From NCBI RefSeq assembly GCF_002073975.1, contig NZ_CP020384.1:2480001-2544000 (forward strand): a stretch of DNA of 64,000 nucleotides. The letters are read 5' to 3'. Numbering within the stretch: position 1 is the stretch's first letter; every line of letters starts with the position of its first letter. The DNA is from Rhodovulum sp. MB263. GTDB lineage: Bacteria; Pseudomonadota; Alphaproteobacteria; Rhodobacterales; Rhodobacteraceae. Below, in pieces: positions 7,081 to 22,649 of the stretch. The notes under the pieces were generated by a model. The model worked only from the letters and a program-made list of their open reading frames with translations, was not told the DNA's origin and did no database searches. A program made the position numbers and the translations under genes.

Positions 7081-7794
7081 TCAGACACTGGCCGGAAGGG
7101 AAAGCTCGGTGTAATGGACCGCAAGACGCACCAGACCACCGGTAAAGCTGCCCCCATCCGGGCTCAGCCTCAGCGGCATCGGCGCATAACCGGTGAGCGG
7201 CCTGCCAAGCACGCCCAGCACATAGGAATTGAGGCCAAGCCCCAGCCCCGAGCCGAAGCGGTTGTCAGATCCGTCCGCCCCGAGCCGCCAGCTGCTCAGC
7301 GTGCCGGTGATCTCCTCGATCACCCGTCCGGTCACACCGAACACGGTTGCATGCGACGGAATGACAACCGCTGTATTCTGCGCCCCGCCCGCCACCACCG
7401 GATGGTCGAATTCAAGCACCCGAAAGGCGATGCCTGCCCCCGAAGGCGCGAGGGCGCCGCCGACCGCGTCCCAGCCCCCGCCGGTCCAGCGCATATCGGC
7501 GCCCGCATCCACCACGAAGGCGCGCCAGCCGGTCAGGGGCGCCAGGAAGACCCAGCCGCCATTGTCCCGGAGCGCGATCCGACCGTCCTGCCCTTCCCAC
7601 TCGCCCGCCGCTCCGGCCGGGACGCCCCAGGCCAGCCCGTCGGCCGCCCCCGGCGGCGGCGCAACCACTGTCAGGCTCTGCAACCGAAGCTGAACCAGCG
7701 CATCGAGGCGGATCAACGCCTCGTTCACGGTGACATGCTTCTGCGCCTGTGCTGCCTGCAGCAGCGGCAGGGACAGATTCGCGGTGTTAGCCAT
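7081..7794 (-). CDS. DUF2793-domain protein of the GTA cluster
   Basis: A 237-residue protein starting MANTANLSLPLLQAAQAQKH. The N-terminal ~100 residues match DUF2793, a domain found in phage- and GTA-associated receptor-binding or spike proteins. The frame is open upstream to 7878, but ATG 7794 is chosen because it overlaps the g15 stop by 8 bases and gives the family N-terminus. The C-terminal half is Gly/Ser-rich with beta-like repeats (RFGSGLGLGLNSYVLGV), as expected of an exposed fibre. In Rhodobacter capsulatus the head-spike genes ghsA/ghsB with this domain lie elsewhere, so its placement here is notable. Function inferred. Confidence 0.75.
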   Translation of the reverse strand: MANTANLSLPLLQAAQAQKHVTVNEALIRLDALVQLRLQSLTVVAPPPGAADGLAWGVPAGAAGEWEGQDGRIALRDNGGWVFLAPLTGWRAFVVDAGADMRWTGGGWDAVGGALAPSGAGIAFRVLEFDHPVVAGGAQNTAVVIPSHATVFGVTGRVIEEITGTLSSWRLGADGSDNRFGSGLGLGLNSYVLGVLGRPLTGYAPMPLRLSPDGGSFTGGLVRLAVHYTELSLPASV

Positions 7795-10700: not shown

Positions 10701-11686
10701 TTGCCGTCGACATGAGGCACGACTTCGGCCATGCTCCGGCTCAGCCCCGCGACCCGCCAGGGCATCGGCCGGCCGTCGAATTCAGTCTGCTCGACCTTGG
10801 GCCTGGGCCGCGCCACCGGCGCCCGCAGATCCGAGGCAAACCAGCTCACCACCAGAGAAACCGAGCCGACATTCGGCAATTCGCCCTGCAGCATGTCGAG
10901 AGATGTCGCAATGTCGGTCTTGCCGCTGGGGGTGTTGACATTGACCGAAGCGGCCTGCCCGGGCCCGTAGGAGAAATGAACCGGCGTCGTCGCCAATGCG
11001 TATTCACCCGTGCCCGGGATCAGAGCCATGCCCCGCACCAGCCCGGGCAGATCGTCAACCGCACCGGCGGCGCGGCGCACCACCTCGAAGGTCAGCTGCG
11101 GCACCCGGTTGCCGAACCGGGCCAGCTCCATGTCCTCGATCACGACATAGGCCGTCCCGCGATAGGCCGGAGCACGCCCCTCTCCTTCGACCGCCTCGAT
11201 CAAGGCATCGGGCAGCTGGTCCTCCGCCCCGTCATAAACCCGCATCGTCAGAGATTGCGGCTCGATCTCGGTCCCGTCCGCCCAGATCCGGCCGACCCGG
11301 GCGATCCGACCTTCGCAAAGCGCGATGCCCAGGCTCACCGAATAGCTGTATTCCTTGACCTTGGGCTTGCTGGGCGCCCCCTTGCCGCCACCACGCGTGC
11401 TGACCGTCTCGCGAAAGCGCGAGGCCCAGATCACCTGCCCCGCGACCCGCGCCCGCCCCCAGAGCCGCCCCAGCGCCGCCCCCTCGCTTGCCCCGGTCAG
11501 GCGAAACCGCTCGACCTTGCCGGTCTCGACCGCCTGCGATCCGCTGCCCAGCAACTGCTGATCGATCACCCGCCCCAGCGTCGCACCGACCGCCCGGCCA
11601 AGGACCGCGCTCGACAGCCCCAGCACCGAGCCGCCCAGCGCCGAACCGGCCGCTGCGCCGGCCGCCGACAATACGATTGTCGCCAT
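7787..11686 (-). CDS. GTA host-specificity / baseplate hub protein (orfg15), glycoside-hydrolase TIM-barrel type
   Basis: The largest protein of the cluster (1299 residues), matching GTA orfg15, the tail-tip protein that contacts the host envelope. It opens with a hydrophobic Ala/Gly-rich N-terminus (IVLSAAGAAAGSALGG). A TIM-barrel glycoside-hydrolase-like module runs about residues 440-760 (AFCIGSELRGLTTI, IDFVGIDNYMPLSDW, PIWFTELGCPAVDKG, where the Glu is a candidate catalytic acid). Phage-tail-3-type and C-terminal beta-rich regions follow. It begins 3 bases after orfg14. Full length and uninterrupted, so apparently functional. Confidence 0.93.
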   Translation of the reverse strand: MATIVLSAAGAAAGSALGGSVLGLSSAVLGRAVGATLGRVIDQQLLGSGSQAVETGKVERFRLTGASEGAALGRLWGRARVAGQVIWASRFRETVSTRGGGKGAPSKPKVKEYSYSVSLGIALCEGRIARVGRIWADGTEIEPQSLTMRVYDGAEDQLPDALIEAVEGEGRAPAYRGTAYVVIEDMELARFGNRVPQLTFEVVRRAAGAVDDLPGLVRGMALIPGTGEYALATTPVHFSYGPGQAASVNVNTPSGKTDIATSLDMLQGELPNVGSVSLVVSWFASDLRAPVARPRPKVEQTEFDGRPMPWRVAGLSRSMAEVVPHVDGKPVYGGTPADASVVEAIRALRQRGQEAVFYPFILMDQLAGNSLIDPYTGAAGQPPLPWRGRITLNFAPSHAFTTDGSRFAEDEVALFFGAARPEDFAVSGQGILYSGPEEWSYRRFILHYAHLCALAGGVSAFCIGSELRGLTTIRGAEGRFPAVDALRALAADVREIVGPSCQIGYAADWSEYFGFHPEDGTGDVLFHLDPLWADPAIDFVGIDNYMPLSDWRDGDEHADAGWGTIYDQDYLRSNIEGGEGFDWYYASQAARDAQIRSPISDGAYGEPWVWRYKDLRSWWQNAHHDRIDGVRSAEPTAWVPQSKPIWFTELGCPAVDKGTNAPNLFSDPKSSENALPPYSTGARDDLIQHQYLRAMLGYWADPAINPVSALYGAPMVDMSRAHVWAWDARPYPQFPGNHALWSDGANYGRGHWLNGRASAQSLDAVIREICTGAGVADPDVSGVYGLVRGYVIGDLAGARAALQPLMLAYGIEAAERDGRITFFNRDGREGVVIDAADLARTGELAGDIEHSRTPDAETAGRVRLSFIEADGAYETRAAEAIFPDEPSRTVSASELPLVLTGAEGQAIVERWLAESRVARDRVQLALPLSSLSVGAGDVMHLSSGDYRIDRVDLGEARRIEAVRVERGLYLPPRIEDRGVVQAAFAAPVPVHALFMDLPLLTGDEVPHAPYLAAAAVPWPGSVDLYAAVEDAGYSLNTTLERPAVIGVAETPLHAAAPGRWDRGPALRVKIASGTLSSVGEAELLAGANLAAIGTGDAAGWELFQFAEAELVAPGTYELRRRLRGQAGTEAHMPELWPVGSTVVLIDARLSQIALPASARGLARHYRFGPGTQAYDDPSYSHAKLAFDGIGLRPYAPCHLGARRQSGGDLTLSWMRRTRLDGDSWASVEVPLGEARELYVLRVMTLAGDELRAESVTVPGWTYTAAMQAADGAVVPFAVEVAQLSDQFGPGPYRRIEIDG

Positions 11687-11689
11687 GGA

Positions 11690-12133
11690 TCAGATCCTTT
11701 CCGGGAAGGCGAACCGGGCAACGATCCGCCGCGCCCAGGGCGCGGAGAGCGAGCTTTCGACGACGCCGCGGCCGGAATAGGCGTGAATGAAGCTGGGCAT
11801 CTCGAACACCCGCCCCTGCAGGCCGAGATGCTTGGCCACCGTGTCGTCGCGCATCCGGAACAGGATGACATCGCCCTCGGCGGCCTCCTCCAGCGGTCGG
11901 ACGAGAAGATGCCGCCTCGCCGCCCGCCACAGGACCTCCTCGCCCTGAGGCTCGGACCAGTCCGGCGTATAGGGCGGCACCTCTTCCGGCTCGCCGCCGT
12001 AAAGCGCGCGCCAGACGCCGCGCAACAGGCCCAGACAATCGGCCCCGGCGCCCCGCACCGTGCCCTGATGCCGATACGGCGTTCCGATCCAGCGCCGCGC
12101 CTCGGCGGCGGCCCGCTCTCCCATACTGATCAT
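11690..12133 (-). CDS. GTA cell-wall peptidase, NlpC/P60 family (orfg14)
   Basis: A 147-residue NlpC/P60 phage-type peptidase expected to cut peptidoglycan during DNA delivery. The nucleophile is the Cys in GADCLGLLRGVW (about residue 33) and the catalytic His is likely in VAKHLGLQ. The open frame extends to 12190, but ATG 12133 forms an ATGA overlap with the orfg13 stop and gives the usual MISMGERAAAEARRWIGTPY start. It sits between orfg13 and orfg15, the RcGTA order. Confidence 0.92.
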   Translation of the reverse strand: MISMGERAAAEARRWIGTPYRHQGTVRGAGADCLGLLRGVWRALYGGEPEEVPPYTPDWSEPQGEEVLWRAARRHLLVRPLEEAAEGDVILFRMRDDTVAKHLGLQGRVFEMPSFIHAYSGRGVVESSLSAPWARRIVARFAFPERI

Positions 12134-13017
12134 GACTTCAGACTTCCCCCGTCGTTCACACCGGCACGGGTCGGATAGCTCATCAGCCAATCCTCGCCCG
12201 GGATATCCGGAAACCCTCTGAAATTCAGGAAATTGTCGAACTTGCTGCGGCAGGTCTCGGCCCGCCGGTCGCAGCCCGCGATCAGCCGCAGAGTGTCCCC
12301 CGCGCCGACCGGGCCCCGGATCTCGGACCAGAGCTCGATCACCCGAAGCCCATTCTCCTCGCGATCGCCCTTGATCGCACCCGCAAGCCCGGCCGCGGGG
12401 CCCGACACCACCTCAAGCCGGCCCTGCTCGAACCAATGCGCCGCAAAGCCGGACAGCCCCTCGAAACGGAACGCCCGATGCCCGGTCACCGACACCGCAG
12501 CCAGGACGGTCGAGAAGCCCTCCTGCCCGGTGTCGAAACGACAGGCCCCATCGCCCAGAACCGCACCGCAGGGCACCTGATAGATCTGCCCCTGCGGCTG
12601 GTTCAGCCCCTCGGCCAGACCGCGCAGCTCGGCCTCGAAGGCCCCGGCCGTCCGGGTCATCTCGCCCAGCGTCCCGGTGAAGATCAGCGCGTGCTGTTCG
12701 GGCTCGCGCCAGTTCACCAGCCAGATCCTCAACCCCGCGCCGTCATAGCGTCCGGCCGAGATATCCTCCTCGGTGATCGCCTCCGAACTCAGCGCCGAAA
12801 CCGCAGCCGAATTGTCGACGGAAAGCCCGGTGGTCTGGCTCAGCGCCCGCGCCGTCATGCCGGTATCGGCGCGGAAGGTGATCCCGCCAAAGACAAGATC
12901 GCGGTCGTGATCGGTGAATCCCAGCACGACGCCGTCCCGCCGGACCAGCGCCCAAGCCCGGGCAAGCGTTGTCGCACCGCTTTCCAGATGCGCCAGAAAT
13001 GTCCCCGACAGCGCCAT
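12130..13017 (-). CDS. GTA tail protein, DUF2163 / baseplate hub (orfg13)
   Basis: A 295-residue DUF2163-family protein. Characteristic features are the N-terminal LAHLESGATTLARAWALVRRDG, GFTDHDRDL and the Cys-bearing C-terminal part (CGAVLGDGACRFDT; GCDRRAETCRSKFDNFLNFRGFP). The corresponding RcGTA protein is a tail-tip hub component, and the conserved cysteines have been linked to an iron-sulfur site in that family (established knowledge, not visible here beyond the cysteines). It overlaps orfg12 by one base and orfg14 by four. Confidence 0.92.
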   Translation of the reverse strand: MALSGTFLAHLESGATTLARAWALVRRDGVVLGFTDHDRDLVFGGITFRADTGMTARALSQTTGLSVDNSAAVSALSSEAITEEDISAGRYDGAGLRIWLVNWREPEQHALIFTGTLGEMTRTAGAFEAELRGLAEGLNQPQGQIYQVPCGAVLGDGACRFDTGQEGFSTVLAAVSVTGHRAFRFEGLSGFAAHWFEQGRLEVVSGPAAGLAGAIKGDREENGLRVIELWSEIRGPVGAGDTLRLIAGCDRRAETCRSKFDNFLNFRGFPDIPGEDWLMSYPTRAGVNDGGSLKS

Positions 13018-13649
13018 CAGATCCGCAGCTCCACCACAGGAACCGAGGGCACTTCGCCTGCCCGGAAGCTCTCGACCGAGCTTTGGATCCGATCGGTATC
13101 GAAGCGCACCGGCACATCGAATTCGAACCCTGCGGTAACGACCGCTCCCACAGGCGGCGCCTCGGCCAGCGTCACCAGACCGGAGGCGAGGTCGATCATG
13201 TAATCGGCCGGCGCGAACAGCTCGATCCCGTCCTGGGCCAGCCGAACCGTGCCCGCGACCGGCTTTGCGATCGGCCGCACATAGGACTGCCCGCCCGAGG
13301 CATAGGTTTTCCGAAGCTGGAACCGGACCGTGGCGCCATCGCCCGAACCGATCACCTGATCGCCCGGTGCGACATCGGCCGAGGGGCGGCAGGACTTGTA
13401 ATCCGACCAGTCCTTCCAGCGGAACCCGTAAAGCTGGCCGCGCCGCGCCTCGAAGAAGGCGATCAGCTGCTCGACATCGTCGAGCGAACTCATTGCGACC
13501 CCGGCATCATAGCGTCGTCGGGCATGCTCCCAGGGGGTGTTGCGCTCCTCGAAGCCGTTGGCGAGGGTGACGATCTCGGTCCGGCGCTCGGGCCCCCCCA
13601 CCGAGCCGAAGCTGAGATTGGCCGGGAAACGGACTTCGTGAAATGCCAT
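13017..13649 (-). CDS. GTA distal tail protein, DUF2460 (orfg12)
   Basis: A 210-residue DUF2460-family protein (MAFHEVRFPANLSFGSVGGPERRTE start; EERNTPWEHARRRYDAGVA; FRWKDWSDYKSC). In RcGTA the homologue forms the distal tail ring between the tail tube and the hub. It is separated from orfg11 by 15 bases and shares the final A of its TGATG junction with orfg13. Complete and of normal length. Confidence 0.93.
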   Translation of the reverse strand: MAFHEVRFPANLSFGSVGGPERRTEIVTLANGFEERNTPWEHARRRYDAGVAMSSLDDVEQLIAFFEARRGQLYGFRWKDWSDYKSCRPSADVAPGDQVIGSGDGATVRFQLRKTYASGGQSYVRPIAKPVAGTVRLAQDGIELFAPADYMIDLASGLVTLAEAPPVGAVVTAGFEFDVPVRFDTDRIQSSVESFRAGEVPSVPVVELRI

Positions 13650-13664
13650 AGGCGGTTTCCTCCC

Positions 13665-14333
13665 TCACCTGTTGCGCTGGGCGCGCGAGAGCAGGCGACT
13701 CATCTCGGCCGCGATCTGGCTCTGACTGCGCGCAAACCCCTGCACGTCCGGCGTGTTGATGTTCATGACGATCTGGATCGGCCGCGCCGGGCCGCCGCTG
13801 TCCGACCGCACGCCAAGGCGGCCATCGGCGCCGCGCGACAGCGGCAGGATCGCCTCGGGCCCGGCCTCGCCCATCAGCCCGGTCGCGCCCCGCATCGGAA
13901 AATACGTTGCCTGCGCCACGATGCCCCCGGAGGCAAAGGGAACGACTCGCCCCTGCGAGAAGCTCGCCCCCCTGGCAAAGGGCAAGGCGGCGCCCATCAG
14001 CCCCTCGATCCCGCTCGCAATCAACCCGCTCAGCTGCCCCTGCACCGGCTTCACGGCTGCGGCATAGGTCGCGTTGGCCACCGAATTGGCGACCGATTTC
14101 AGCGCGTCCGAGAGTTTCATCCCATCGAAGACCAACCCGTCGAAAGCCCCCCTCAGGCCGCGCCCGATGGCATTCGACAGCGACCCCACCTCGCGATTGG
14201 TCAGCGTCAGCGTGTCCCGCATCCGCAGAAGTCCCAGCTCGAAGGCCGCCGCGGTCCCGCTCGCCCCCCCCAGGGTCGTCTCCAGCGCCTCCAGTTGCGC
14301 CTCGAATGTCTCGATGTCCTCAGCCTCTGCCAT
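13665..14333 (-). CDS. GTA tail tape measure protein (orfg11)
   Basis: A 222-residue short tape measure protein, consistent with the short GTA tail. The N-terminal helix is coiled-coil-like (EDIETFEAQLEALETTL). The central part is Ala/Gly-rich and hydrophobic (SVANSVANATYAAAVKPVQGQL; GIEGLMGAALPFARG). The C-terminal FASGGIVAQATYFPM and GLMGEAGPEAILPLSRG signatures are those of phage tape measures. It starts 3 bases after the small chaperone-like gene. Confidence 0.92.
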   Translation of the reverse strand: MAEAEDIETFEAQLEALETTLGGASGTAAAFELGLLRMRDTLTLTNREVGSLSNAIGRGLRGAFDGLVFDGMKLSDALKSVANSVANATYAAAVKPVQGQLSGLIASGIEGLMGAALPFARGASFSQGRVVPFASGGIVAQATYFPMRGATGLMGEAGPEAILPLSRGADGRLGVRSDSGGPARPIQIVMNINTPDVQGFARSQSQIAAEMSRLLSRAQRNR

Positions 14334-14336
14334 GGC

Positions 14337-14531
14337 CTATCCTTCGCCCCTCGTTTTGTCCGGAAAGGCGCGAGCCAGTTCCTCCAGCCGCACCCGGCTC
14401 ATGGGGGCAGGCCCGCCATCGGCCCCCAGCATCAGCATCAGTTCGGCAGGCGTAAGCCCCCAGAACTCGGACGGCCTCAATCCCAGCCCCCGGATGCCCG
14501 CGCGCATCAGCGCGCCCCAGTCAAAGCCCAT
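14337..14531 (-). CDS. GTA tail assembly chaperone-like protein (orfg10.1)
   Basis: A 64-residue protein, MGFDWGALMRAGIRGLGLRP at the start and LTPAELMLMLG in the middle, the signature of the rcc01693-type small protein located before the GTA tape measure gene. The open frame runs upstream to 14672, but ATG 14531 gives the family N-terminus and overlaps the end of orfg10 by 11 bases. Position before a tape measure gene fits a tail assembly chaperone. Confidence 0.85.
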   Translation of the reverse strand: MGFDWGALMRAGIRGLGLRPSEFWGLTPAELMLMLGADGGPAPMSRVRLEELARAFPDKTRGEG

Positions 14532-14853
14532 CGTGTTTCGCCTCGGGCAGGGTGAAGGCCCGCGCCAGAAGCTGCGCGGCAGCCTGAGCGGCGGCGATCG
14601 GGCCGCCCCCGATATCTGCCTCGGCCAGATCGGAGGTCGTTCCCTGCCAGCCGCCGCCGCGCAACCCGGCAAGCAAAAGTGCGATCACGTCGCGGGTCGC
14701 GAAATGCCCCTCTTCGTAGCGCTCGATCAGCGCAAGCAGCGTATCGGCGCCCAGCGCCGCCTCCAGTTCGGCCAATGCGCCGAGCGTAAGCTTGAGAACC
14801 TGACGCTCTCCGTCGACCATCAGCGCCACTTCTCCTGCATGGGGATTTGGCAT
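14521..14853 (-). CDS. GTA tail assembly protein (orfg10, gene transfer agent family)
   Basis: A 110-residue protein with the GEVALMVDGERQVLKLTLGA start typical of GTA orfg10 proteins, followed by helices (ALAELEAALGADTLLALIERY). Two starts are possible: ATG 14853 (MPNPHAGEV) and a GTG at 14859 that forms a GTGA overlap with the stop of the tail tube gene. The ATG is preferred on family pattern. With the overlapping small downstream gene it resembles a split tail assembly chaperone pair. Confidence 0.85.
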   Translation of the reverse strand: MPNPHAGEVALMVDGERQVLKLTLGALAELEAALGADTLLALIERYEEGHFATRDVIALLLAGLRGGGWQGTTSDLAEADIGGGPIAAAQAAAQLLARAFTLPEAKHDGL

Positions 14854-14855
14854 GG

Positions 14856-15269
14856 TCACATCGCCGTAAAGCTGAGGACACCGGCCGAGGCGAGCGTCAT
14901 TTCATAGGTGGCCTCGCCATTATGGCTGCCGGCATATTCCAGGCTGCTGACCTGAAACCGCCCTTCGACGACCCCGAAATCCGGGATCACCAGCTGGAAA
15001 AGCGGCGTGAGACCGTCGAAGAAGACCTGCCGGGCACGGGCATCGGTCTCGGCATCCTTGAAGACGCCCGAACCGCTGATCGTGGCGGTCTTGACCCCCG
15101 CACCGGCCAGCAATTCACGCCAGCCCCCCTGGCTTTCCAGGCTGGTCACGTCGACCGGCTCGGCATTGAAGCTGATGCGCGAGGCCCGCAGCCCCGCGAA
15201 GGTCGAGAAGTCTCCCGAGCCGGAGAGGTCGACCTTGATGAGAAGATCCTTGCCGTTCTGCGCCGTCAT
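14856..15269 (-). CDS. GTA major tail tube protein (orfg9), TP901-1 type
   Basis: A 137-residue major tail protein of the TP901-1-like family: MTAQNGKDLLIKVDLSGSGD start, SFNAEPVDVTSLESQGGWRE (the typical NxxxVDVTs pattern), GSGVFKDAETDARARQ and a C-terminal EYAGSHNGEATYEMTLASAG. It polymerises into the short tail tube. The frame remains open upstream to 15755 without coding character; ATG 15269 matches the family. Confidence 0.93.
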   Translation of the reverse strand: MTAQNGKDLLIKVDLSGSGDFSTFAGLRASRISFNAEPVDVTSLESQGGWRELLAGAGVKTATISGSGVFKDAETDARARQVFFDGLTPLFQLVIPDFGVVEGRFQVSSLEYAGSHNGEATYEMTLASAGVLSFTAM

Positions 15270-15292
15270 TTCGCGTACTCCACATGTGTCAT

Positions 15293-15703
15293 TCAATCGT
15301 CCTCGACCCGGACGGAGAACCGCAGGTCGATGCGACGCTGATCCTTCGCGCCGACGCGCCGGGCACGGGCGCGGTCGAACCAGAGCCCGACCACCCTCCC
15401 CCGGGCGAGCGCGAGCGGCGCCGCGGACAGGGCGTCCGAGATAGCTCCGGCGGCAGCCTTGGCCCGGGCGAACCCGCTCTCCTCGCTGACAACCGAGATC
15501 GTCACGCGGTGCAGAGCCCCGTCCGCGCCCTTGTCGGACGCGTCGCGGACCTCTTCCGGCCCGAGGCTCACATAGATCGGCGGAAGACGCCCCGCAGGCA
15601 TCGCGTCGAAGATCGCATCCCCGACGATGGCAGTAATGGCGGCATGCCCCGAAATCCGCTCGAAGATCGCGGCCTGCAGCGCCGCCGCCATGCCATAGCT
15701 CAT
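15293..15703 (-). CDS. GTA tail terminator protein, DUF3168 (orfg8)
   Basis: A 136-residue DUF3168 protein (MSYGMAAALQAAIFERI start; IYVSLGPEEVRDASDKG; HRVTISVVSEESGFARAK). DUF3168 proteins cap the tail tube at the head-tail junction. It overlaps orfg7 by four bases (ATGA) and lies 23 bases before the tail tube gene. Confidence 0.92.
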   Translation of the reverse strand: MSYGMAAALQAAIFERISGHAAITAIVGDAIFDAMPAGRLPPIYVSLGPEEVRDASDKGADGALHRVTISVVSEESGFARAKAAAGAISDALSAAPLALARGRVVGLWFDRARARRVGAKDQRRIDLRFSVRVEDD

Positions 15704-16041
15704 GCTGCGATCTCCTCTTCCGCGTAGCAGGCCAGATAGAGGCCGCGCGCGTCATGCTCGGTCACCGCATGGATGTGAAAGACCCGCGCGCCTTCGCGGA
15801 ACCTCTGCCCGGCCGCGGGCCGGGAAGGCGCACCGGGCGGAGCGCCCCGGACCACGACCCGGTAAAGCACCCGCGACAAGGCCAGTTCCTCGCCGCCCCG
15901 CTCGCCCGCCATGCGCGGGCTCATCTCGGCCCAAAGCATACCGCGCGGCACCCAGGTTTCGGAAAAGCCGCCCGCGCCATCGGCGACAGGAACCGGCACC
16001 TCGAGAACCAGCTGCCGGTTCAGCATCGGTATCCGGCTCAT
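15700..16041 (-). CDS. GTA head closure / stopper protein (orfg7)
   Basis: A 113-residue head-tail adaptor (HK97 gp7/SPP1 gp16-like): LNRQLVLEVPVPVADGAGGF start, GGFSETWVPRGMLWAEM, and a beta-rich C-terminus (RVFHIHAVTEHDARGLYLAC). It overlaps both neighbours by four bases, indicating translational coupling from orfg6 to orfg8. Confidence 0.92.
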   Translation of the reverse strand: MSRIPMLNRQLVLEVPVPVADGAGGFSETWVPRGMLWAEMSPRMAGERGGEELALSRVLYRVVVRGAPPGAPSRPAAGQRFREGARVFHIHAVTEHDARGLYLACYAEEEIAA

Positions 16042-16637
16042 CGTGGACCTCCCGCCGTCAGACGCAACGGCCGCCAGCGATCGGTAAGCGCCACGACACC
16101 GAACGGCATCGCGCCTTTGCCAGTCGGCTGCTCGACCCGGTTTTCGTAGTAATGCGCGGCCAGCAACAGCACCGCATGGCCCAGATCCTCGGGCACCGCC
16201 TCCCAGTCCGGGCCGAACCCCGCCTCGAAGTCGATCCGTACGCGGCCCTCGAAGGGAATGCCGGGCATCGTGCCCCCCGTCCCCCGCAGCTGCGGCGCAT
16301 GGGTGTCGGTCACCAGCCGGTAGCGGGCGGGCGGAACCGCAACTGCGCTGCCATTTCGGTCAACGACCCGGATTTCGGTCACGGCCCGCACCGGGGCAAC
16401 CGGCAAGCCCTGCCGGTCGCTCTGGCGCCAGCAATGCAGCTCATAGCTGAAACTGCGGGCGATCAGGGCCTTTCCGGTCCGCGCCTCGACCGCCGCGATG
16501 GCGGCCCGGAGCAGCGTCTCGAGATAGGCGTCCTGGTTTTCCTCTCCGGCAAATCCCGTCCCCAGACGCAGCTGCGCCTTGAACTGCGCAAGCGGAAGCG
16601 CCGCTCCGGGCACCGTCGTCTGCTCGATCAGCATCAT
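16038..16637 (-). CDS. GTA head-tail adaptor (orfg6), phiE125 gp8 family
   Basis: A 199-residue connector protein of the phiE125 gp8/HK97 gp6 type (LAQFKAQLRLGTGFAGEEND-like start with AYLETLLRAAIAAVEARTGKAL; C-terminal DLGHAVLLLAAHYYENRVEQ). It follows the capsid gene after a 158-base gap with a long hairpin. Its own ribosome site GGAG lies about 10 bases before the first of two ATG codons (MMLIEQ). Confidence 0.92.
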   Translation of the reverse strand: MMLIEQTTVPGAALPLAQFKAQLRLGTGFAGEENQDAYLETLLRAAIAAVEARTGKALIARSFSYELHCWRQSDRQGLPVAPVRAVTEIRVVDRNGSAVAVPPARYRLVTDTHAPQLRGTGGTMPGIPFEGRVRIDFEAGFGPDWEAVPEDLGHAVLLLAAHYYENRVEQPTGKGAMPFGVVALTDRWRPLRLTAGGPR

Positions 16638-16674
16638 CTTGTGGTTTCTCCGCTTTGCCTTGCTGCAAGGACGA

Positions 16675-16740
16675 CGCGCGCAGCCCCGTCCCGCCCTGCC
16701 GGAGGGACCGACCGGACAGGGCCTTGCGGGGCTGCGCGCG
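16675..16740 (-). other. Long hairpin between GTA capsid gene and orfg6
   Basis: CGCGCGCAGCCCCG at 16675-16688 and its exact complement at 16727-16740 give a 14-bp stem. Inside, CCCTGCCGG and CCGGACAGGG add a further almost complete stem. No U-run follows on the minus strand, so it looks like an mRNA-stabilising or processing structure, or a ribosome/RNase boundary, after the most needed structural gene, and less like an intrinsic terminator. Confidence 0.8.
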
Positions 16741-16795
16741 CCTCACCGCCCCGAGACCGGGGACCGGTGTGGATGCGGTGCCGGATCGCCTGCGA

Positions 16796-17983
16796 TCACG
16801 ACACCGAGAACTTCAGCACCTTGATGGCGGCAAAGTCGCTGACATCACCGCCGACGCGCTTGGTGGCGTAGAACAGCACATGCGGCTTGGCCGAGAACGG
16901 ATCGCGCAGCACCCGCAGATCGGGCCGCTCGGCCACGGCATAACCGGCCTGGAAATCGCCGAAGGCGATGGCCGTCGCATCCGCCGCGATGTCGGGCATG
17001 TCCTCGGCGATCAGCACCGGATAACCCAGCAACCGCGCGGGCTCGGCCGCGGCCAGCCCGTCCGACCACAGGAACCGCCCGTCGGCATCCTTCATCTTGC
17101 GAACGGCCCCGGCGGTCTTCGAATTCATCACGAATGTCGCGTTGGCGCGATAGACCGCGCCCAGCGAGTAGACCAGATCGAGGATCGCATCCGAAGGCGC
17201 GGCCACGTCGAAATCGCCATCGGCACCGGTCGCGACATAGCCGAGACTGCCCCAGGACCAGGAGGCCTCGGCAACCTTGGGATGGTCGAGAAAGCCCCGC
17301 GGCTTGTCGATACCATCGCCCGAGATGAAGGCGGCGGCCTCGGCCCGGGCGAACTTGTCGGCAATCCGTCCCGCCAGCCAGCCCTCGATGTCGAAGGCGC
17401 TGTCATCCAGCAGCCGCTGGCTGATCTTGGGCATCGCCGACAATTCGTGCAGCGGGATCGTCACCCGCTCGATCTGCGGCGTCGAGGTCTCGACCTGGCT
17501 GCCGGTCTCGCTCGACCAGCCCGACCCGGTATCCGAATGATCGACCAGCACGTCATAGGAACTGGCCTCCACCGTGACCACCTGCGAGATCGAGCGGATC
17601 GACGCCGTGGAGGTCAGGACCGACTGGATGCTGCTGGCGGTTTCGGGATCGATCAGATAGCCGCCATCGCCGGCCACCGCGGTCGACATCGCCTTGGCCT
17701 CGACTTCGATCCCGCGCAGAGCGTCATCGTCGCCGGTTCTCAGATAGGCGCCGAAGGCTTTCTTGTGAGGCACTTCGATCTCGGCGGAACGGGATAGAAC
17801 GGGGCGCCCCGCGGTAACTTGCGATTTCCGGTCGAACATGGTCAGTCGCTCTTCCTGTTGTTTGAGTCTTGATTTGATTTCGGACTGGAAGCTGCTGAAA
17901 TCTTTTATGAAATCTTCCAGTGCCTCACGTATTTCCATAGCTGGGCCACGCCCCCGCCCGGTCTTGACTTCGGTCTCGGTCAT
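16796..17983 (-). CDS. GTA major capsid protein (orfg5), HK97 fold
   Basis: A 395-residue HK97-type capsid protein. The first ~100 residues include a delta/scaffold coiled coil (FQSEIKSRLKQQEERLTMFD) that is removed by the orfg4 protease in this family; the mature shell region follows (AGDGGYLIDPETASSIQSVL, VTIPLHELSAMPKISQRLLD, GDFQAGYAVAERPDLRVLRD). ATG 17983 (MTETEVKTGRG) is chosen over the open extension to 18133, which overlaps the protease gene. 43 bases separate it from orfg4. Confidence 0.95.
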   Translation of the reverse strand: MTETEVKTGRGRGPAMEIREALEDFIKDFSSFQSEIKSRLKQQEERLTMFDRKSQVTAGRPVLSRSAEIEVPHKKAFGAYLRTGDDDALRGIEVEAKAMSTAVAGDGGYLIDPETASSIQSVLTSTASIRSISQVVTVEASSYDVLVDHSDTGSGWSSETGSQVETSTPQIERVTIPLHELSAMPKISQRLLDDSAFDIEGWLAGRIADKFARAEAAAFISGDGIDKPRGFLDHPKVAEASWSWGSLGYVATGADGDFDVAAPSDAILDLVYSLGAVYRANATFVMNSKTAGAVRKMKDADGRFLWSDGLAAAEPARLLGYPVLIAEDMPDIAADATAIAFGDFQAGYAVAERPDLRVLRDPFSAKPHVLFYATKRVGGDVSDFAAIKVLKFSVS

Positions 17984-18026
17984 ATCGCTTGTCCTGTCTG
18001 GGAACGGTCTTGCCGGCATCGGGGCG

Positions 18027-18593
18027 TTACCCCTCGGCCAGCACATGACGGGCGCCCGCAAAGGCATCCGCCAGATCGCGCAAGAGCGCCTCGGCACTTT
18101 CTTCCGTCTTGGTGCCGACCCGCGCATCGGCAAGCATCGGGAAGGTCACCAGCGACACTTCCCAAAGCTCCAGCTCGGCAAGCAACCTGTGCCCGCTTGC
18201 ATCCTTGCTCGCACGCCTGGTGCGGTAGCCGATCGACAGCCCGTCGATCGCCCCGGCCGCGACCAACGCCGCCGCCTCGCGGCCGCGGGTCACATCGGTC
18301 AGGATCCGGCCCTTGACGTAAAGCCCGCGCGCATCCTCGCGAACCTCGTCCCAGACCCCGATCGGCTCCGACGGATCATGCTGCCAGAGCATTTTCACCC
18401 GCCGTCCCTCGGCCGCCATCTGCTGCAACGAGGCCCCATAGGCACCGCTCTGAACGATGTCGCCTCCGAAATCGGTGGCCCCGAAGACCGAGGCATAGCC
18501 CTCGATCACCGCACCCTCCTTCAGCGCCAGCGGCAGGGCATCGTTCTTGCAGAACTTGTGCTCGAGCGCGCTGCCAACGTCGTACTCCTTCAT
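18027..18593 (-). CDS. GTA prohead protease (orfg4), HK97 family
   Basis: A 188-residue HK97-type maturation protease (peptidase U35). Candidate catalytic residues are the His in MLWQHDPSEPIG (about residue 65), the Ser in IDGLSIGYRTRR (about 117), and the acidic residue in ELWEVSLVTFPM. Start ATG 18593 (MKEYDVGSALE) is preferred over the upstream extension overlapping the small orfg3.5 gene. It lies between portal and capsid genes, the usual order. Confidence 0.93.
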   Translation of the reverse strand: MKEYDVGSALEHKFCKNDALPLALKEGAVIEGYASVFGATDFGGDIVQSGAYGASLQQMAAEGRRVKMLWQHDPSEPIGVWDEVREDARGLYVKGRILTDVTRGREAAALVAAGAIDGLSIGYRTRRASKDASGHRLLAELELWEVSLVTFPMLADARVGTKTEESAEALLRDLADAFAGARHVLAEG

Positions 18594-18613
18594 CTGGTCT
18601 GTCCTCTTCGCTG

Positions 18614-18856
18614 CTATGGGACGGAGATGGCGGCCAGGATCGAGGCGATGCCTTCGGCAAGGATCACCGCGACGATCCCGTAAACTGTCAGCCATACGCG
18701 CTTTTCGATCTGGTCCAGCATCTCCTCGATGCGTTTCAGCCGGTATTCGAGTGCGCTCCAGCGCTCTTCCATCACCCGCTCGCTGGCCTCGATCCGGATA
18801 TGCGTCGCATCGAAGGGGGCGTAGAGAAACCGCGACCCCGATCTTGGCTGGGTCAC
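18614..18856 (-). CDS. GTA head formation protein (orfg3.5)
   Basis: An 80-residue protein with an N-terminal YAPFDATHIRIEASERVMEE segment, a helix that could form a coiled coil (LEYRLKRIEEMLDQIEKRV) and one C-terminal membrane segment (LTVYGIVAVILAEGIASILA). It matches the small RcGTA head-formation protein between portal and protease. GTG 18856 overlaps the portal stop (GTGA), which decides the start against the longer frame to 18946. Confidence 0.85.
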   Translation of the reverse strand: MTQPRSGSRFLYAPFDATHIRIEASERVMEERWSALEYRLKRIEEMLDQIEKRVWLTVYGIVAVILAEGIASILAAISVP

Positions 18857-20034
18857 CCTCGCCCCCCTTCCGGGCGCCTCGGCAACCCGAGCAGCGCGCG
18901 CTTCTCGTCTTCTGTCAGGAACTCGGCTTCTGAGATTCTCTTCCATTGCGTATCCCGCTCGGCGGCCAGCGCCGGCACCTGGTCGAGATCGGGTTTGAGA
19001 GACACCGCCGAAGAGCCGAAATGGGCAAGAAACTCGGCCAGGGCTCCGGTGACCTTCGCCACCAGGGGCACCACCGTCAGCCGATAGAAAGCGCGGTTGG
19101 CCTCCTGGTAATTGGCATAGGTCGCCTCGCCCGGAATTCCCAGAAGCATGGGCGGCACACCGAAGGCCGTGGCGATCTCGCGAGCCGCAGCCTCCTTGGT
19201 CTTCTGAAACTCCATGTCCGAGGGCGAGAAGCCCATCGGCTTCCAGTCGAGGCCGCCTTCCAGCAGCATCGGCCGTCCGGCATTCGCCGCCCCCTGGTGA
19301 TAGGACAGCATCTCGTCCTGCAGCCGCGCATATTGCTCTTCGCTCAGCATCGACTGGCCGTCCGAGCCATTATAGATGATTGCGCCCGAGGGCCGGGCTG
19401 CATTGTCCAGCAGCGCCTTCGACCAGCGCGAGGCGGCATTGTGCACATCGACCGCGGTCGCGGCGGCCTGCATCGGCGACAGGCCGTAATGGTCGTCCTG
19501 CGGATGGAAATTCTTGATATGGCAGATCGGCGGCACCGGCCCGGTCATGTCGAAACGATGCTTGCGCGCGCCGACCATGTAGTCATAGGCGACGGGCCAT
19601 CCGTCTGTCCCCGGCACCAGCCGCATCCGGTCCGAGCGCAGCACATGCAGTTCGAAAGGCAGCCCGGTCTCGCCGCCCACCGCCTCGAGATAGCCGTTCC
19701 CCGAAAGCAGGAGCTGGCCGTAAAGCGCCTCCATCAGCTCGGCGCGGCCTTGCGCCGGATTGGGCCGCCTGAGCAGCTCCATCACCGGATGCGTTTCGTA
19801 CCGCCTGTCCTCGTCCTGGCAGATCAACGGCAAGGCCGCCGCGGATTCCGCGATCAGCTTGACCGCGCGAAAGCCGACGGGATTGGCATTGAACCCCGCC
19901 CTGATGAGCGAGCCCGTATCGCGCGGCGTCCAGGCCGCGCGGCCCGCTCCTGCCCAGGCGATCACAGGCCCCGTGGCCGAGGCCTTGGTCTCGGGCAGTG
20001 TTTCCGTCGCTCGGCGGAACAGGTTGAATTTCAT
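18853..20034 (-). CDS. GTA portal protein (orfg3), HK97 type
   Basis: A 393-residue portal protein forming the dodecameric DNA channel. Family markers: NPVGFRAVKLIAESAAALPL, HPVMELLRRPNPAQGRAELM, GNGYLEAVG, IKNFHPQDDHYGLSPMQAA, EREIA-like KEAAAREIATAFGVPPMLLG and ANYQEANRAFYRLTV. A 133-base gap with a terminator-like hairpin separates it from the terminase upstream; it overlaps the next small gene by four bases. Confidence 0.95.
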   Translation of the reverse strand: MKFNLFRRATETLPETKASATGPVIAWAGAGRAAWTPRDTGSLIRAGFNANPVGFRAVKLIAESAAALPLICQDEDRRYETHPVMELLRRPNPAQGRAELMEALYGQLLLSGNGYLEAVGGETGLPFELHVLRSDRMRLVPGTDGWPVAYDYMVGARKHRFDMTGPVPPICHIKNFHPQDDHYGLSPMQAAATAVDVHNAASRWSKALLDNAARPSGAIIYNGSDGQSMLSEEQYARLQDEMLSYHQGAANAGRPMLLEGGLDWKPMGFSPSDMEFQKTKEAAAREIATAFGVPPMLLGIPGEATYANYQEANRAFYRLTVVPLVAKVTGALAEFLAHFGSSAVSLKPDLDQVPALAAERDTQWKRISEAEFLTEDEKRALLGLPRRPEGGRG

Positions 20035-20167: not shown

Positions 20168-21601
20168 CTAAAGGCCCCGCACGCGCGGCCGGCGCCACTG
20201 CGCGGCAGGCGCGATCATCAGATCGTTGATCGCCCAGACCAGGGCATCGACCCGGTCCGGGCTGCCACGGCCCTCATAGCCATGCGACGTCATGTGACAC
20301 ATCTGCTCCTCGAGCAGCTGCAACCCCCTGAGATGCCTGACGCGCCCCTGTTCGTAGAGCGCCGCCACGGGCTCGGCCCGGACGATCTTGCTTCGCGTCG
20401 CCCGAACCGCGCGGAACGGCACCATCGCGTCGAGCTGCCGGATCATGGTCTCGACCAGATCGCCACCCTGATTGACCTCGGCGACCAGGCGATCAGCCGA
20501 ATGGCGTTCCATGGCCTCAAGCGCGATCTTTGCCCAGACTGTGGGCGCGGCGCCCGCCACGCTCGCATCCTCCAGCACGTAAGCGCTCCAGCTCTGGGGC
20601 GGCCCCTGCATCCGGACCCCGGCCACGACGATGCCGCATTCATCCGAGCCGGCATGGCTCGACACCGGCGGATCGACCGCCACCACGATCCGGTCGAGCT
20701 CCGGGGCCTCATCGACCCGCAGCGCCTCCAGCCGGGCAAGCGTCCAGAGCGCGCTTTCGGCCTCTTCCAGCAGAATGCCGTCCAGCTCCTGCCGACCGAG
20801 CCGGGTGCCGGAATAGCGCGTCCGCACCGCCTCCAGAAACGAGGCCGCAAGATTGGCGCGGTTGGCCTCGGTCGGCGCATGGGTGACGACCGTCTTCGGG
20901 TTCGACAGGATGGATTTAAGCACCGGTACATTGCGCGGCGTCGTCGTCACGCATTGCTGCGGTGCCTCGCCCAGCCTCAGCCCGAACTGAAGCATGTCCC
21001 AGGTTTCCTCGGCCCGTTTCCATTTTGCCAGCTCGTCCGACCAGGCGGCATCGAATTGCGGCCCACGAAGCGAGTCCGGATCATGCGCCGAGAAGACCTG
21101 CGCCACCGCGCCATTCGGCCAGACCAGTCGGCGCCGCGTCGCCTCCCAGTTCGGCCGCCGGTCGGGCGGCGAACAGGCCAGAATGCCGCTTTCGCCGAAC
21201 ACCATGACCTCGCGCGCCTCGTCGATCGTCTCGCCGACCAGCGCCACCCGGCGCGCCCGGCCTTCATCCAGCGGCCGCGCCCCCTCGACCTGCGCGCGAA
21301 TCCATTCCGAACCGGCCCGGGTCTTGCCCGAGCCGCGCCCGCCCATGATCACCCAGGACCGCCAGTCGCCCTCGGGAGCAAGCTGATGCGGCAAGGCCCA
21401 GAATTCGAAAAGGTAGGGCAGCGCCAGCAGCACCGCTTCATCCATCCCCTCGAGAAACGCTGTCTGCGTCTCGGGCGGAGCGCAGGCGATCCAGTCGGCG
21501 CCTGACTTCAAGGCGCGCCTGATCAAGGTCGAGTGCCTGGATTCCTCCGTCGGAACCGGATTCCGCATTGAGCCGCCTTTCCACCCGCTGTCGTTCATCA
21601 A
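20168..21601 (-). CDS. GTA large terminase (orfg2)
   Basis: The packaging motor: an ATPase/nuclease that threads about headful lengths of chromosomal DNA in GTAs. Walker A is WVIMGGRGSGKTRAG (about residue 95); DEAREVMVFGESG and AVDPPVSSHAGSDECG (nuclease acidic site) follow, with a C-terminal RVDALVWAINDL. The frame is open to 21601, giving 477 residues and a 164-base overlap with orfg1; the true start may be ATG 21568 or a later codon, since an internal ATG at 21445 gives only an 8-base overlap but would trim residues usually conserved before LPHQL. Confidence 0.93.
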   Translation of the reverse strand: MMNDSGWKGGSMRNPVPTEESRHSTLIRRALKSGADWIACAPPETQTAFLEGMDEAVLLALPYLFEFWALPHQLAPEGDWRSWVIMGGRGSGKTRAGSEWIRAQVEGARPLDEGRARRVALVGETIDEAREVMVFGESGILACSPPDRRPNWEATRRRLVWPNGAVAQVFSAHDPDSLRGPQFDAAWSDELAKWKRAEETWDMLQFGLRLGEAPQQCVTTTPRNVPVLKSILSNPKTVVTHAPTEANRANLAASFLEAVRTRYSGTRLGRQELDGILLEEAESALWTLARLEALRVDEAPELDRIVVAVDPPVSSHAGSDECGIVVAGVRMQGPPQSWSAYVLEDASVAGAAPTVWAKIALEAMERHSADRLVAEVNQGGDLVETMIRQLDAMVPFRAVRATRSKIVRAEPVAALYEQGRVRHLRGLQLLEEQMCHMTSHGYEGRGSPDRVDALVWAINDLMIAPAAQWRRPRVRGL

Positions 21602-21794
21602 ACGCAGTCTGGGCCGCTTTTCCGAGATCGTTCAGCGCCCCCCGCAGCATGCGGGCGCGCTCGGAATTGCCGGCCTGGATTTCTTCGATCAGGTCATTCA
21701 GGGCACGGATCATGCGCCTGTAATGTTCTTCGGCTTCCTCTAGCACCGCCCACGCTGCCGCGTCGCCCGCTGCAGGTGAGAGATCGTCTGTCAT
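21438..21794 (-). CDS. GTA small terminase (orfg1)
   Basis: A 118-residue, highly charged helical protein: MTDDLSPAAGDAAAWAVLEE, then AEEHYRRMIRALNDLIEEIQ and GALNDLGKAAQTAFDERQRV. These are the features of GTA TerS, which recognises DNA weakly and supports non-specific packaging. First gene of the cluster, 41 bases after the leader hairpin. The frame is open to a TTG at 21836 inside the U-run of that hairpin; ATG 21794 is the more plausible start. It overlaps the beginning of orfg2 in another frame. Confidence 0.85.
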   Translation of the reverse strand: MTDDLSPAAGDAAAWAVLEEAEEHYRRMIRALNDLIEEIQAGNSERARMLRGALNDLGKAAQTAFDERQRVERRLNAESGSDGGIQALDLDQARLEVRRRLDRLRSARDADSVSRGDG

Positions 21795-21834
21795 CGCGTC
21801 TGCCTGATTGACCTGCCTATTGCAGTGAGAAGAC

Positions 21835-21871
21835 AAAGAAAAAGCGGCCTCCGGGGGTCTCCCCGTGCCGC
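21835..21871 (-). terminator. Intrinsic-terminator-like hairpin in the GTA leader
   Basis: On the minus strand GCGGC (21871-21867) pairs with GCCGC (21848-21844), enclosing CGGGG/CCCCG with a 4-base loop, and TTTTTCTTT (21843-21835) follows directly. It lies between the promoter at 21900-21928 and the first GTA gene, so transcripts from that promoter must pass it. It could also be read as the terminator of the CoA-transferase operon. Confidence 0.75.
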
Positions 21872-21899
21872 CAATCCCACGTCTTCCAGCTTGCCTGAA

Positions 21900-21928
21900 G
21901 GTATATTCCAGACCGCGCGCAAAGTCAA
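21900..21928 (-). promoter_or_regulatory. Sigma70-type promoter of the GTA operon
   Basis: TTGACT (21928-21923), a 17-base spacer and TATACC (21905-21900) on the minus strand, one of the best -35/-10 pairs in the window. The predicted start near 21893 gives a leader of about 100 bases before orfg1 or a 59-base RNA if termination occurs at the leader hairpin. Confidence 0.75.
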
Positions 21929-21939
21929 GATGTTTATTA

Positions 21940-21954
21940 TTAACAATGGGTTAA
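21940..21954 (-). promoter_or_regulatory. CtrA-type box upstream of the GTA promoter
   Basis: TTAACCCATTGTTAA fits the full CtrA consensus TTAA-N7-TTAA and is also an inverted repeat (ATTAAC/GTTAAT). It ends 11 bases upstream of the -35 hexamer. CtrA is required for GTA production in Rhodobacterales (established); direct control through this site is inferred. Confidence 0.65.
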
Positions 21955-21995: not shown

Positions 21996-22649
21996 TCAGT
22001 CCAGCGCCATTTCCGCGACATCCTCCGGCACGATCAACGCGGCAGAGGTCGCCGCAAGGATGTCATCGACCGTCACGCCCGGCCCCCGCTCGCGCAGAAC
22101 AAGACCCGCATCGCCGGGCTCGATCACCGCCATCTCGGTCACGACCAGGCTGACCCGGCGCGTCGCGGTCAGAGGCAGCGTGCATTCCGGCACGATCTTC
22201 GGCACGCCCTTCGCGCTATGGACCATCGCCACGATCACCCGGCGCGCCCCCGTGACCAGATCCATCGCGCCGCCCATCCCCGGCACCATCTTGCCCGGCA
22301 CCATCCAGTTGGCAAGATGGCCCTTTTCGTCCACCTGCAGCCCGCCCAGCACGGTCATGTCCAGATGCCCGCCCCGGATCAGCCCGAAGCTCATCGCGCT
22401 GTCGATCGAGGCGGCCCCGGGCACCGCGGTTACGAAACCGCCGCCCGCATCGGTCAGGTCGCGGTCCTCCATCCCGTCCGGCGGCCGCTGGCCCAGCCCG
22501 ATCACCCCGTTCTCGGCCTGAAAGAAGACATGCATGTCGTCGGGCACGAAATTCGCTACCATCGAGGGCAGGCCGATCCCCAGATTGACCAGCATCCCCT
22601 CGCGCACCTCCTGCGCCACGCGGCGGGCGATCACTTCCTTGGCGTCCAT
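21996..22649 (-). CDS. 3-oxoacid/acetate CoA-transferase subunit B
   Basis: Beta subunit of a class I CoA-transferase that swaps CoA between acyl-CoA and a carboxylate such as acetate, succinate or acetoacetate. The 217-residue length is usual. The catalytic Glu lies in FQAENGVIGLG (about residue 52), with LGIGLPSMVANFVPDD before and GAMDLVTGARRVIVAM after it. The ATG overlaps the stop of the alpha subunit (TGATG). It ends the six-gene minus-strand operon; substrate specificity (atoA, scoB or similar) cannot be read from the sequence. Confidence 0.92.
   Translation of the reverse strand: MDAKEVIARRVAQEVREGMLVNLGIGLPSMVANFVPDDMHVFFQAENGVIGLGQRPPDGMEDRDLTDAGGGFVTAVPGAASIDSAMSFGLIRGGHLDMTVLGGLQVDEKGHLANWMVPGKMVPGMGGAMDLVTGARRVIVAMVHSAKGVPKIVPECTLPLTATRRVSLVVTEMAVIEPGDAGLVLRERGPGVTVDDILAATSAALIVPEDVAEMALD

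Follow-up and report, generated by a model that had tools for sequence, protein, structure and literature searches.

Late-gene control by Q at pR'-tR' of phage lambda combines a strong promoter, a regulator site between the -35 and -10 hexamers and a terminator, which together give a short RNA as the default product. Antitermination reportedly also controls BaGTA of Bartonella, to judge from the title of Korotaev et al. 2025. Gene transfer agents (GTAs), to which BaGTA belongs, are DNA-transfer particles of domesticated viral origin. The closest described system is the main GTA promoter of Caulobacter crescentus (CcGTA), where, according to the accessible text of its description, GafZ has its binding site between -35 and -10 and enables polymerase to read through terminators (PMC11150451). 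The same text treats lambda Q control as well, and its authors suggest that GafA, whose C-terminal domain is a GafZ homologue, may also antiterminate (PMC11150451). As described there, the Caulobacter -35 is degenerate and GafY and IHF are required, whereas a promoter given a near-consensus -35 works in the absence of GafYZ, with an activity about sixfold lower; what was tested as the terminator is a set of three 150-bp repeats that follow the first gene (PMC11150451). For the R. capsulatus GTA (RcGTA), the available portions of two reports describe binding of GafA over the -10 and the start, 76-125 bp upstream of g1 (PMC6363796), with the C-terminal domain binding a fragment that contains the -35, -10 and start and the N-terminal domain binding the flanking fragments (PMC9638019).

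The window analysed here is the whole 64,000-nucleotide stretch from Rhodovulum sp. MB263 that contains a GTA cluster. The leader of this cluster resembles CcGTA, as far as the latter's accessible description goes, in having a main GTA promoter, an activator with a GafZ domain (PF20057), a motif between -35 and -10, and a terminator, here a predicted one, between the promoter and most of the cluster (PMC11150451). It differs from CcGTA in its near-consensus -35, TTGACT; in a conserved single terminator-like hairpin that lies about 22 nt past the start and is joined by a further one behind terL, the second gene, in place of the repeats; in GafA being one protein instead of GafY plus GafZ; and in a spacer motif, GCGnACGGTC, which stands at the ZBE position but is unlike the published Caulobacter ZBE in sequence (PMC11150451, in the parts available). 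Because the -35 is not degenerate and a conserved terminator lies in the leader, the locus was not filed as Caulobacter-type GafZ control. We give about even chances that it represents a new version of antiterminator-gated operon control, one that would work like Caulobacter GafZ control.

The GTA cluster and its leader in Rhodovulum sp. MB263

All features described below lie on the minus strand. The cluster opens with g1, a gene of 118 aa in the small-terminase position (21438..21794; no Pfam match), followed by the large terminase gene terL (20168..21601; Terminase_6N/6C) and further structural genes (7787..20034), among which portal (ATG at 20034), capsid and a GTA_TIM tail protein were identified by Pfam. 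With terL, portal, capsid and the GTA_TIM tail gene above the Pfam cut-off in one co-directional cluster, it is of the RcGTA type. A CoA-transferase subunit gene (21996..22649), one of two upstream CoA-transferase genes, lies 5' of the leader. Elsewhere in the genome, a partial second terminase-like match (G000:C1:3432577-3433212) shows 45% identity over query residues 239-453. DUF6456 (PF20057) is carried by a single protein in the genome, a 389-aa reading frame (E 1.8e-63), which by domain and size is the GafA homologue; among 14 control genomes, the domain was matched in Caulobacter vibrioides alone.

In the direction of transcription, the leader begins with an exact CtrA-type box, TTAACCCATTGTTAA (TTAA-N7-TTAA; 21954-21940), a candidate site. 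The -35 hexamer TTGACT (21928-21923) lies 11 bases 3' of the box and is separated by a 17-base spacer from the -10 hexamer TATACC (21905-21900). Within this spacer, the motif GCGCGCGGTC (21911..21920; family consensus GCGnACGGTC) is a candidate site for the GafZ-like C-terminal domain of GafA. The transcription start is predicted at a conserved CA (21892..21893) from the -10 spacing and conservation, and just 3' of it lies a start-proximal element, GCTGGAAGACGTGGG (21876..21890; consensus GCTRGAAGAAGTGGG). A GC-rich terminator-like hairpin (21843..21872; arms GCGGC at 21871-21867 and GCCGC at 21848-21844) and an immediate T-tract, TTTTTCTTT (21843-21835), follow and carry the sequence signature of an intrinsic terminator, at which a ~59-nt RNA is predicted to end. 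The ATG of g1, at 21794, is 41 bases past the last T. The box, TTGACT-N17-TATACC, the hairpin, the T-tract and the placement of g1 agree base for base with the original prediction, and the ~59-nt default product that it put forward follows, as a prediction, from the predicted start and the T-tract. The spacer motif, the start-proximal element and a second hairpin at 20124-20082 were absent from it.

The exact string box-N11-TTGACT-N17-TATACC is found at 21954-21900 and in none of 100 shuffles. For the 99-nt leader the computed fold has an energy of -42.3 kcal/mol, compared with -31.2 ± 3.5 for 200 shuffles (z -3.2), and 0/200 were as good. A simple promoter/terminator consensus scan of the window listed neither the leader promoter nor the leader hairpin, because TATACC lacks the required last T and the hairpin is bulged; the analysis therefore relied on comparison with relatives, and it is this comparison that makes the elements credible. 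An Rfam search of the leader gave zero matches. The GafA-bound stretch of R. capsulatus, when transferred here, becomes 21870-21919 and spans most of the spacer motif, the -10, the start and the start-proximal element, in agreement with the present layout.

The CtrA-type box sets this promoter apart from that of the R. capsulatus GTA, which CtrA failed to bind in a shift assay according to the accessible text (PMC6363796), and owing to that result the box is regarded as a candidate site only. The original prediction took it as known that CtrA and the sigma-like activator GafA control GTA genes; "sigma-like" is incomplete for a protein with a GafZ-homologous C-terminal domain. The window has a single TTAAN7TTAA and the 4.16 Mb genome has 7, against 13 for a reversed-pattern control, so that the box is rare yet not enriched genome-wide. 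In the 60 nt upstream of the -35 of related leaders, it is present exactly in 31/98, with at most one mismatch in 60/98 and with at most two in 80/98 (mononucleotide shuffle means 0.1, 2.2 and 19, respectively), with most start positions about 26 or 44-57 nt ahead of the -35. DNA upstream of the GafA homologue gene contains TTAAC-N6-GTAAC, the reverse order of the CtrA site GTAAC-N6-TTAAC given, apparently for the ctrA promoter, in the available part of PMC6363796. For D. shibae, the accessible text of PMC6473078 gives predicted CtrA sites at gafA and at further genes associated with the GTA, and the portion available of another report describes slightly lower GTA cluster expression in CtrA-relay mutants (PMC4046655).

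A second terminator-like hairpin, GGCCCGTCCCCGGGGGATGACCCGGGCGGCGGGCC followed by TTTTCTTT (20124-20082), lies between the terL stop at 20168 and the portal ATG at 20034. The fold of this region in the window is unexceptional for its composition (z -1.7; 9/200 shuffles as good). A hairpin of -12 kcal/mol or better with a T-tract within 140 nt after the terL stop was found at 24/57 genome loci, in 3/3 Paracoccus and in 29/80 IMG/VR stretches, which partly overlap the genome set, as compared with 52/420 dinucleotide shuffles. By this count, internal terminator-like sites after terL are enriched, not universal. Matches of the leader model described below that lie after terL in three loci (L255, L262 and L265) pointed to the terL-portal gap.

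Conservation and distribution of the leader

Large terminases were found in 33/41 relatives and in 367/395 family genomes. The comparison set consists of 118 terminase-upstream regions, 58 of them returned loci and 60 taken by place, and five (L027-L031) come from other families; it is biased to closer relatives because L060-L119 were picked down the terminase list from the best, with some skipped. A published primer sequence used to find the R. capsulatus leader gave no match, and that leader is absent from the comparison. The element CANGCTRGAAGAAGTGGG lies ahead of the terminase, at a distance of 290-420 nt, in 106/118 regions with at most six mismatches, in 101 with at most five and in 93 with at most three. 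From the 101 related leaders an alignment and a covariance model, R1, were made, leaving out 17 regions (12 without the element and 5 with six mismatches). R1 recovers five of these 17 at E 3.6e-6 or better (L044, L075, L082, L107 and L118) and scores others more weakly (L114, 0.0013; L031, from another family, 0.006; L023, L028 and L030, 0.26-0.4), with nothing at E 1 in L021, L022, L025, L026, L027, L029 and L092. A leader of the R1 type is thus not evident in six same-family regions (L021, L022, L023, L025, L026 and L092).

The consensus of the 88 closest leaders reads cTTGACtttgcGnaCGgtc-N4-gTAna-N2-ttnngnCAnGCTnGaAGAagTGGGcaagCGgC-hairpin-GccGcTTTTtcnTttcnctCgtgCgG, then gCatgagaggc ahead of the ATG. 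At least five of the six positions of TTGACT are matched in 98/101 leaders; the -35/-10 spacer, within which GCGnACGGTC is carried, measures 17 in 92/98 and 15 in 6/98, and the distance from the -35 to the start-proximal element is 34 or 35 nt in 94/101. Upstream of the -35, the spacer-motif-like CGnACGG is present in 21/98 leaders (e.g. L083, L086 and L110; ACCGTACGGT is the site in L083 and L086) against 4/98 control windows, and in some genera such sites are possibly a second GafA site.

In 99/106 leaders, one hairpin ends where the first T-tract begins, with a median of -21.5 kcal/mol, and this core hairpin reaches -15 kcal/mol or better in 96/106 leaders against 3/530 dinucleotide shuffles. 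Measured from the element, the hairpin start varies by an sd of 1.0 nt and the T-tract start by 2.2 nt. These core counts replace those of a looser search allowing any T-tract (101/106 leaders; 7/530 shuffles at -15), in which the chosen hairpin was sometimes an extended stem; the looser criteria, applied to control windows that lie 200-100 nt 5' of the element, yielded 5/106 at -8 or better. In the alignment of 101 leaders, the terminator helices comprise 11 pairs, with 90.0% and 86.8% of cells paired, and all 11 vary on both sides by compensatory base changes, as in the arms GCGGC/GCCGC, ACGGC/GCCGT, GCGCC/GGCGC and GCGACC/GGTCGC. Covariation over 18 pairs, the 11 of the terminator and 7 of a downstream hairpin (78.0% of cells paired), is 0.238 against a shuffle mean of 0.144, and 0/500 shuffles reached it. 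Slid versions of the 18-pair structure covary at most at 0.116, a comparison in which the structure has the advantage of having been chosen from the same sequences. A second conserved pair, CTCGTGC...GCATGAG, lies 3' of the T-tract and before the first gene in many genera (e.g. L035); it is mostly invariant and is not evident in the window.

At E 0.001 and with stricter filters, R1 matches 265/395 Rhodobacteraceae genomes and 225/329 genera, usually once per genome. As 87 of its 101 rows come from the surveyed family genomes, at least 178 of the 265 matching genomes are independent of model building. Among the 265, the match is weaker than 1e-6 in 36, and multiple matches occur in 11; the 130/395 family genomes with no R1 match at 0.001 mostly carry PF20057. 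The box-promoter-hairpin order proposed for this locus is supported as a genuine GTA leader that relatives share, and not a local coincidence. The GafZ-related domain PF20057 is present in 372/395 family genomes. Its co-occurrence with the leader is not clean, and some assemblies are fragmented: 5/20 listed genomes without PF20057 still match the leader (G048, weakly, G128, G160, G273 and G343).

In the Rhodovulum genome itself, the GTA leader is the best R1 match (E 1.2e-11). The second-best (L244 1501-1587, G000:C1:3474593-3474679; E 4.2e-6) is a terminator-like hairpin with a T-tract between rpmD-like and rplO-like ORFs; without a start-proximal element, it was rejected as a second leader. 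All remaining matches lie above 0.06. Ten other genomes have two or three matches, the extra ones weaker than 1e-5; in G297 the GTA leader (L067 place) is itself the weaker match, and in G245 both are weak. A class-wide search matched 8/241 genomes; the five outside the family are weak (1.2e-5 to 9.5e-4) and thereby serve as a gauge of the noise level of R1. In three genomes compared by eye (G310, G321 and G088), a distance of 259-276 nt separates the end of the R1 match from that of the terminase.

As an independent set, 80 IMG/VR stretches with a related terminase were examined; all 23 that include 350 nt or more of sequence ahead of terL, some of these 23 being near-duplicates, carry the leader at E 4.5e-10 or better. 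Named holders of the leader include Paracoccus denitrificans, P. pantotrophus, P. ferrooxidans and a Roseobacter MAG. The pattern TTGACN36-50GCTRGAAGAMRTGGG across genome contigs found that MAG (L194) as the sole leader among the 117 matches listed, and the other loci listed are chance matches by look that fail the leader filter. Five stretches came from a two-pattern search of viral contigs, and only L238 is a leader; it belongs to a GTA-like cluster, as relatives of terL, portal and protease come after it, and the two patterns found no phage carrying the leader in these contigs. A large-terminase search in phages returned 314 records, every one below 60% identity. The promoter-spacer pattern with 2 mismatches gave hundreds of chance matches in the Rhodovulum genome and was discarded. 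Furthermore, several GTA relics have retained the leader and lost much of the cluster: in L341 (G196) the leader and the g1 start run into an apparent end-of-cluster protein and cysE; in L346 (G148) a short gene and an apparent cysE come after the leader; in L344 (G300) the first gene runs into the capsid gene; and in L345 (G093) terL runs into a tail gene. Since these relics keep the leader without most GTA genes, retention alone does not prove function. No earlier report of this leader was found in the open-access library searched, which leaves out most subscription journals.

Proposed antiterminator gating and its alternatives

The reading that we favour, at slightly better than even odds, is that the leader is a promoter plus terminator gating the GTA structural operon in the manner of lambda pR'-tR', with read-through once GafA has loaded. 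Transcription would begin near 21893 from a sigma-70 promoter whose -35 is near consensus, and unmodified polymerase would stop at the hairpin and its T-tract, some 22-59 nt further on, giving the ~59-nt RNA. The C-terminal domain of GafA, as a GafZ homologue, would bind GCGnACGGTC between -35 and -10; GafA would engage polymerase that is located at the conserved start-proximal sequence or paused within it, and would take it past the leader terminator and the second one after terL into the remaining cluster, with Q at lambda pR'-tR' as the model for such read-through. In lineages having the upstream box, CtrA may give a direct extra input. The order of promoter, spacer motif and downstream terminator is lambda-like and conserved, with the spacer motif as the presumed regulator site. 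In lambda, tR' is farther from the start than the leader terminator is here.

Support for this gated leader comes from the spread of R1 matches across the family, the near-fixed spacing, the compensatory changes in the hairpin and the single GafA homologue of this genome. The Caulobacter -35 swap, as reported in the accessible text of PMC11150451, suggests by analogy that a promoter with a near-consensus -35 may initiate unaided. A leader terminator and a conserved spacer motif are what a promoter-loaded antiterminator needs. The terminator-like hairpin after terL supports the gate as well, because such sites are what a processive antiterminator would need to overcome, and the operon would need one if those terminators work. 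Against the gate, the word "terminat" is absent from the available text of PMC9638019, and "terminator" from that of PMC6363796, the two R. capsulatus GafA papers; the position of the tested Caulobacter terminator after the first gene, the 130 family genomes that R1 does not match and the imperfect co-occurrence with PF20057 also count against it.

The alternative that survives best, which we nevertheless hold to be unlikely, takes the start-proximal sequence mainly as a DNA site for the N-terminal domain of GafA, with a GafA dimer bracketing the promoter and no pause or RNA element; it is compatible with the gated leader. In R. capsulatus, GafA 1-86 bound specifically both fragments flanking the C-domain site, according to the accessible text (PMC9638019). 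On the RNA side, an extended stem could form between GTCTTC (21829..21834) and the GAAGAC within the start-proximal element. The element does pair with the T-tract and beyond in 100/101 minimum-energy folds, and the eight stem pairs covary modestly (0.273 against 0.235, reached by 0/500 shuffles), mostly from one pair, both of which speak against a purely DNA-binding role. However, the element still pairs in 268/303 folds when the sequence after the T-tract is shuffled; because pairing survives this control, the extended stem is given little weight, and the N-domain site is favoured to that degree.

The hairpin could instead be an insulator, that is, a constitutive stop against read-through from mltG or the CoA transferase, with GafA acting on initiation only and its transcripts partly passing the hairpin. 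We consider this improbable. In its favour, the upstream gene is co-directional in all 82/118 regions where it was identified by two queries (mltG in 80/118 and CoA transferase in 2/118, namely the window, L002, and L003; these queries left the 36 others unassigned), and in R. capsulatus, on the accessible accounts, GafA recruits polymerase by way of RpoZ, a point that also counts against the gate (PMC9638019, PMC6363796). The mltG stop, in contrast, lies at variable distances from the element, -11 to 752 nt (n=76, sd 108), so that the hairpin, judged by its spacing, is tied to the promoter rather than to the upstream gene end. This difference, sd 1 against 108 nt, likewise argues against a hairpin that merely ends the CoA-transferase transcript, an objection that the original prediction had raised against itself. 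A stop upstream of the promoter would serve insulation better; moreover, the start-proximal element and the spacer motif are conserved alongside the hairpin, and the leader type is identical whether the neighbour is mltG or CoA transferase (L002 and L003).

More doubtful still is a role in mRNA processing or stability, in which a 5' UTR stem protects the message or is cleaved and termination is inefficient. The possible extended stem, weakened by the shuffle control given above, and the second conserved hairpin downstream in many genera would fit such a role, but the T-tract right after the GC stem in 99/106 leaders is a terminator signature and unnecessary for stability. Classical RNA-only attenuation through a leader peptide or ligand switch is very improbable: CATG at the predicted start gives an ATG in 38/101 leaders, but 54/101 read CAAG there and have no start codon, on which ground a leader peptide was rejected, and an Rfam match is absent.

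Implications for GTA expression in the Rhodobacteraceae

The gated leader can be extended, more tentatively and at somewhat less than even odds, to a family-wide switch of the Q type. Polymerase would then start without GafA and in most cells make a ~59-nt "6S-like" RNA, GafA would be a promoter-loaded processive antiterminator, and the GTA decision would be taken at the leader. The short leader RNA may have a role of its own. Of the original interpretation, which is supported in part, the suggestion that the leader would account for expression in few cells is speculative; noise further upstream, for example in quorum sensing acting on gafA, has been proposed as a possible cause in the accessible text of PMC6363796.

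Antitermination by GafZ in Caulobacter is known and the idea has been raised for GafA, as the available text of PMC11150451 shows. The probable promoter-proximal terminator conserved in most of the Rhodobacteraceae genera sampled offers a defined short target, the leader predicts a short RNA, and the covariance model provides a marker for GTA promoters and GTA relics. The leader bears on the question of how GafA switches on the best-studied GTAs, and why in so few cells, and its arrangement suggests that GTA genes are turned on by passing stop signals, beyond transcription start alone.
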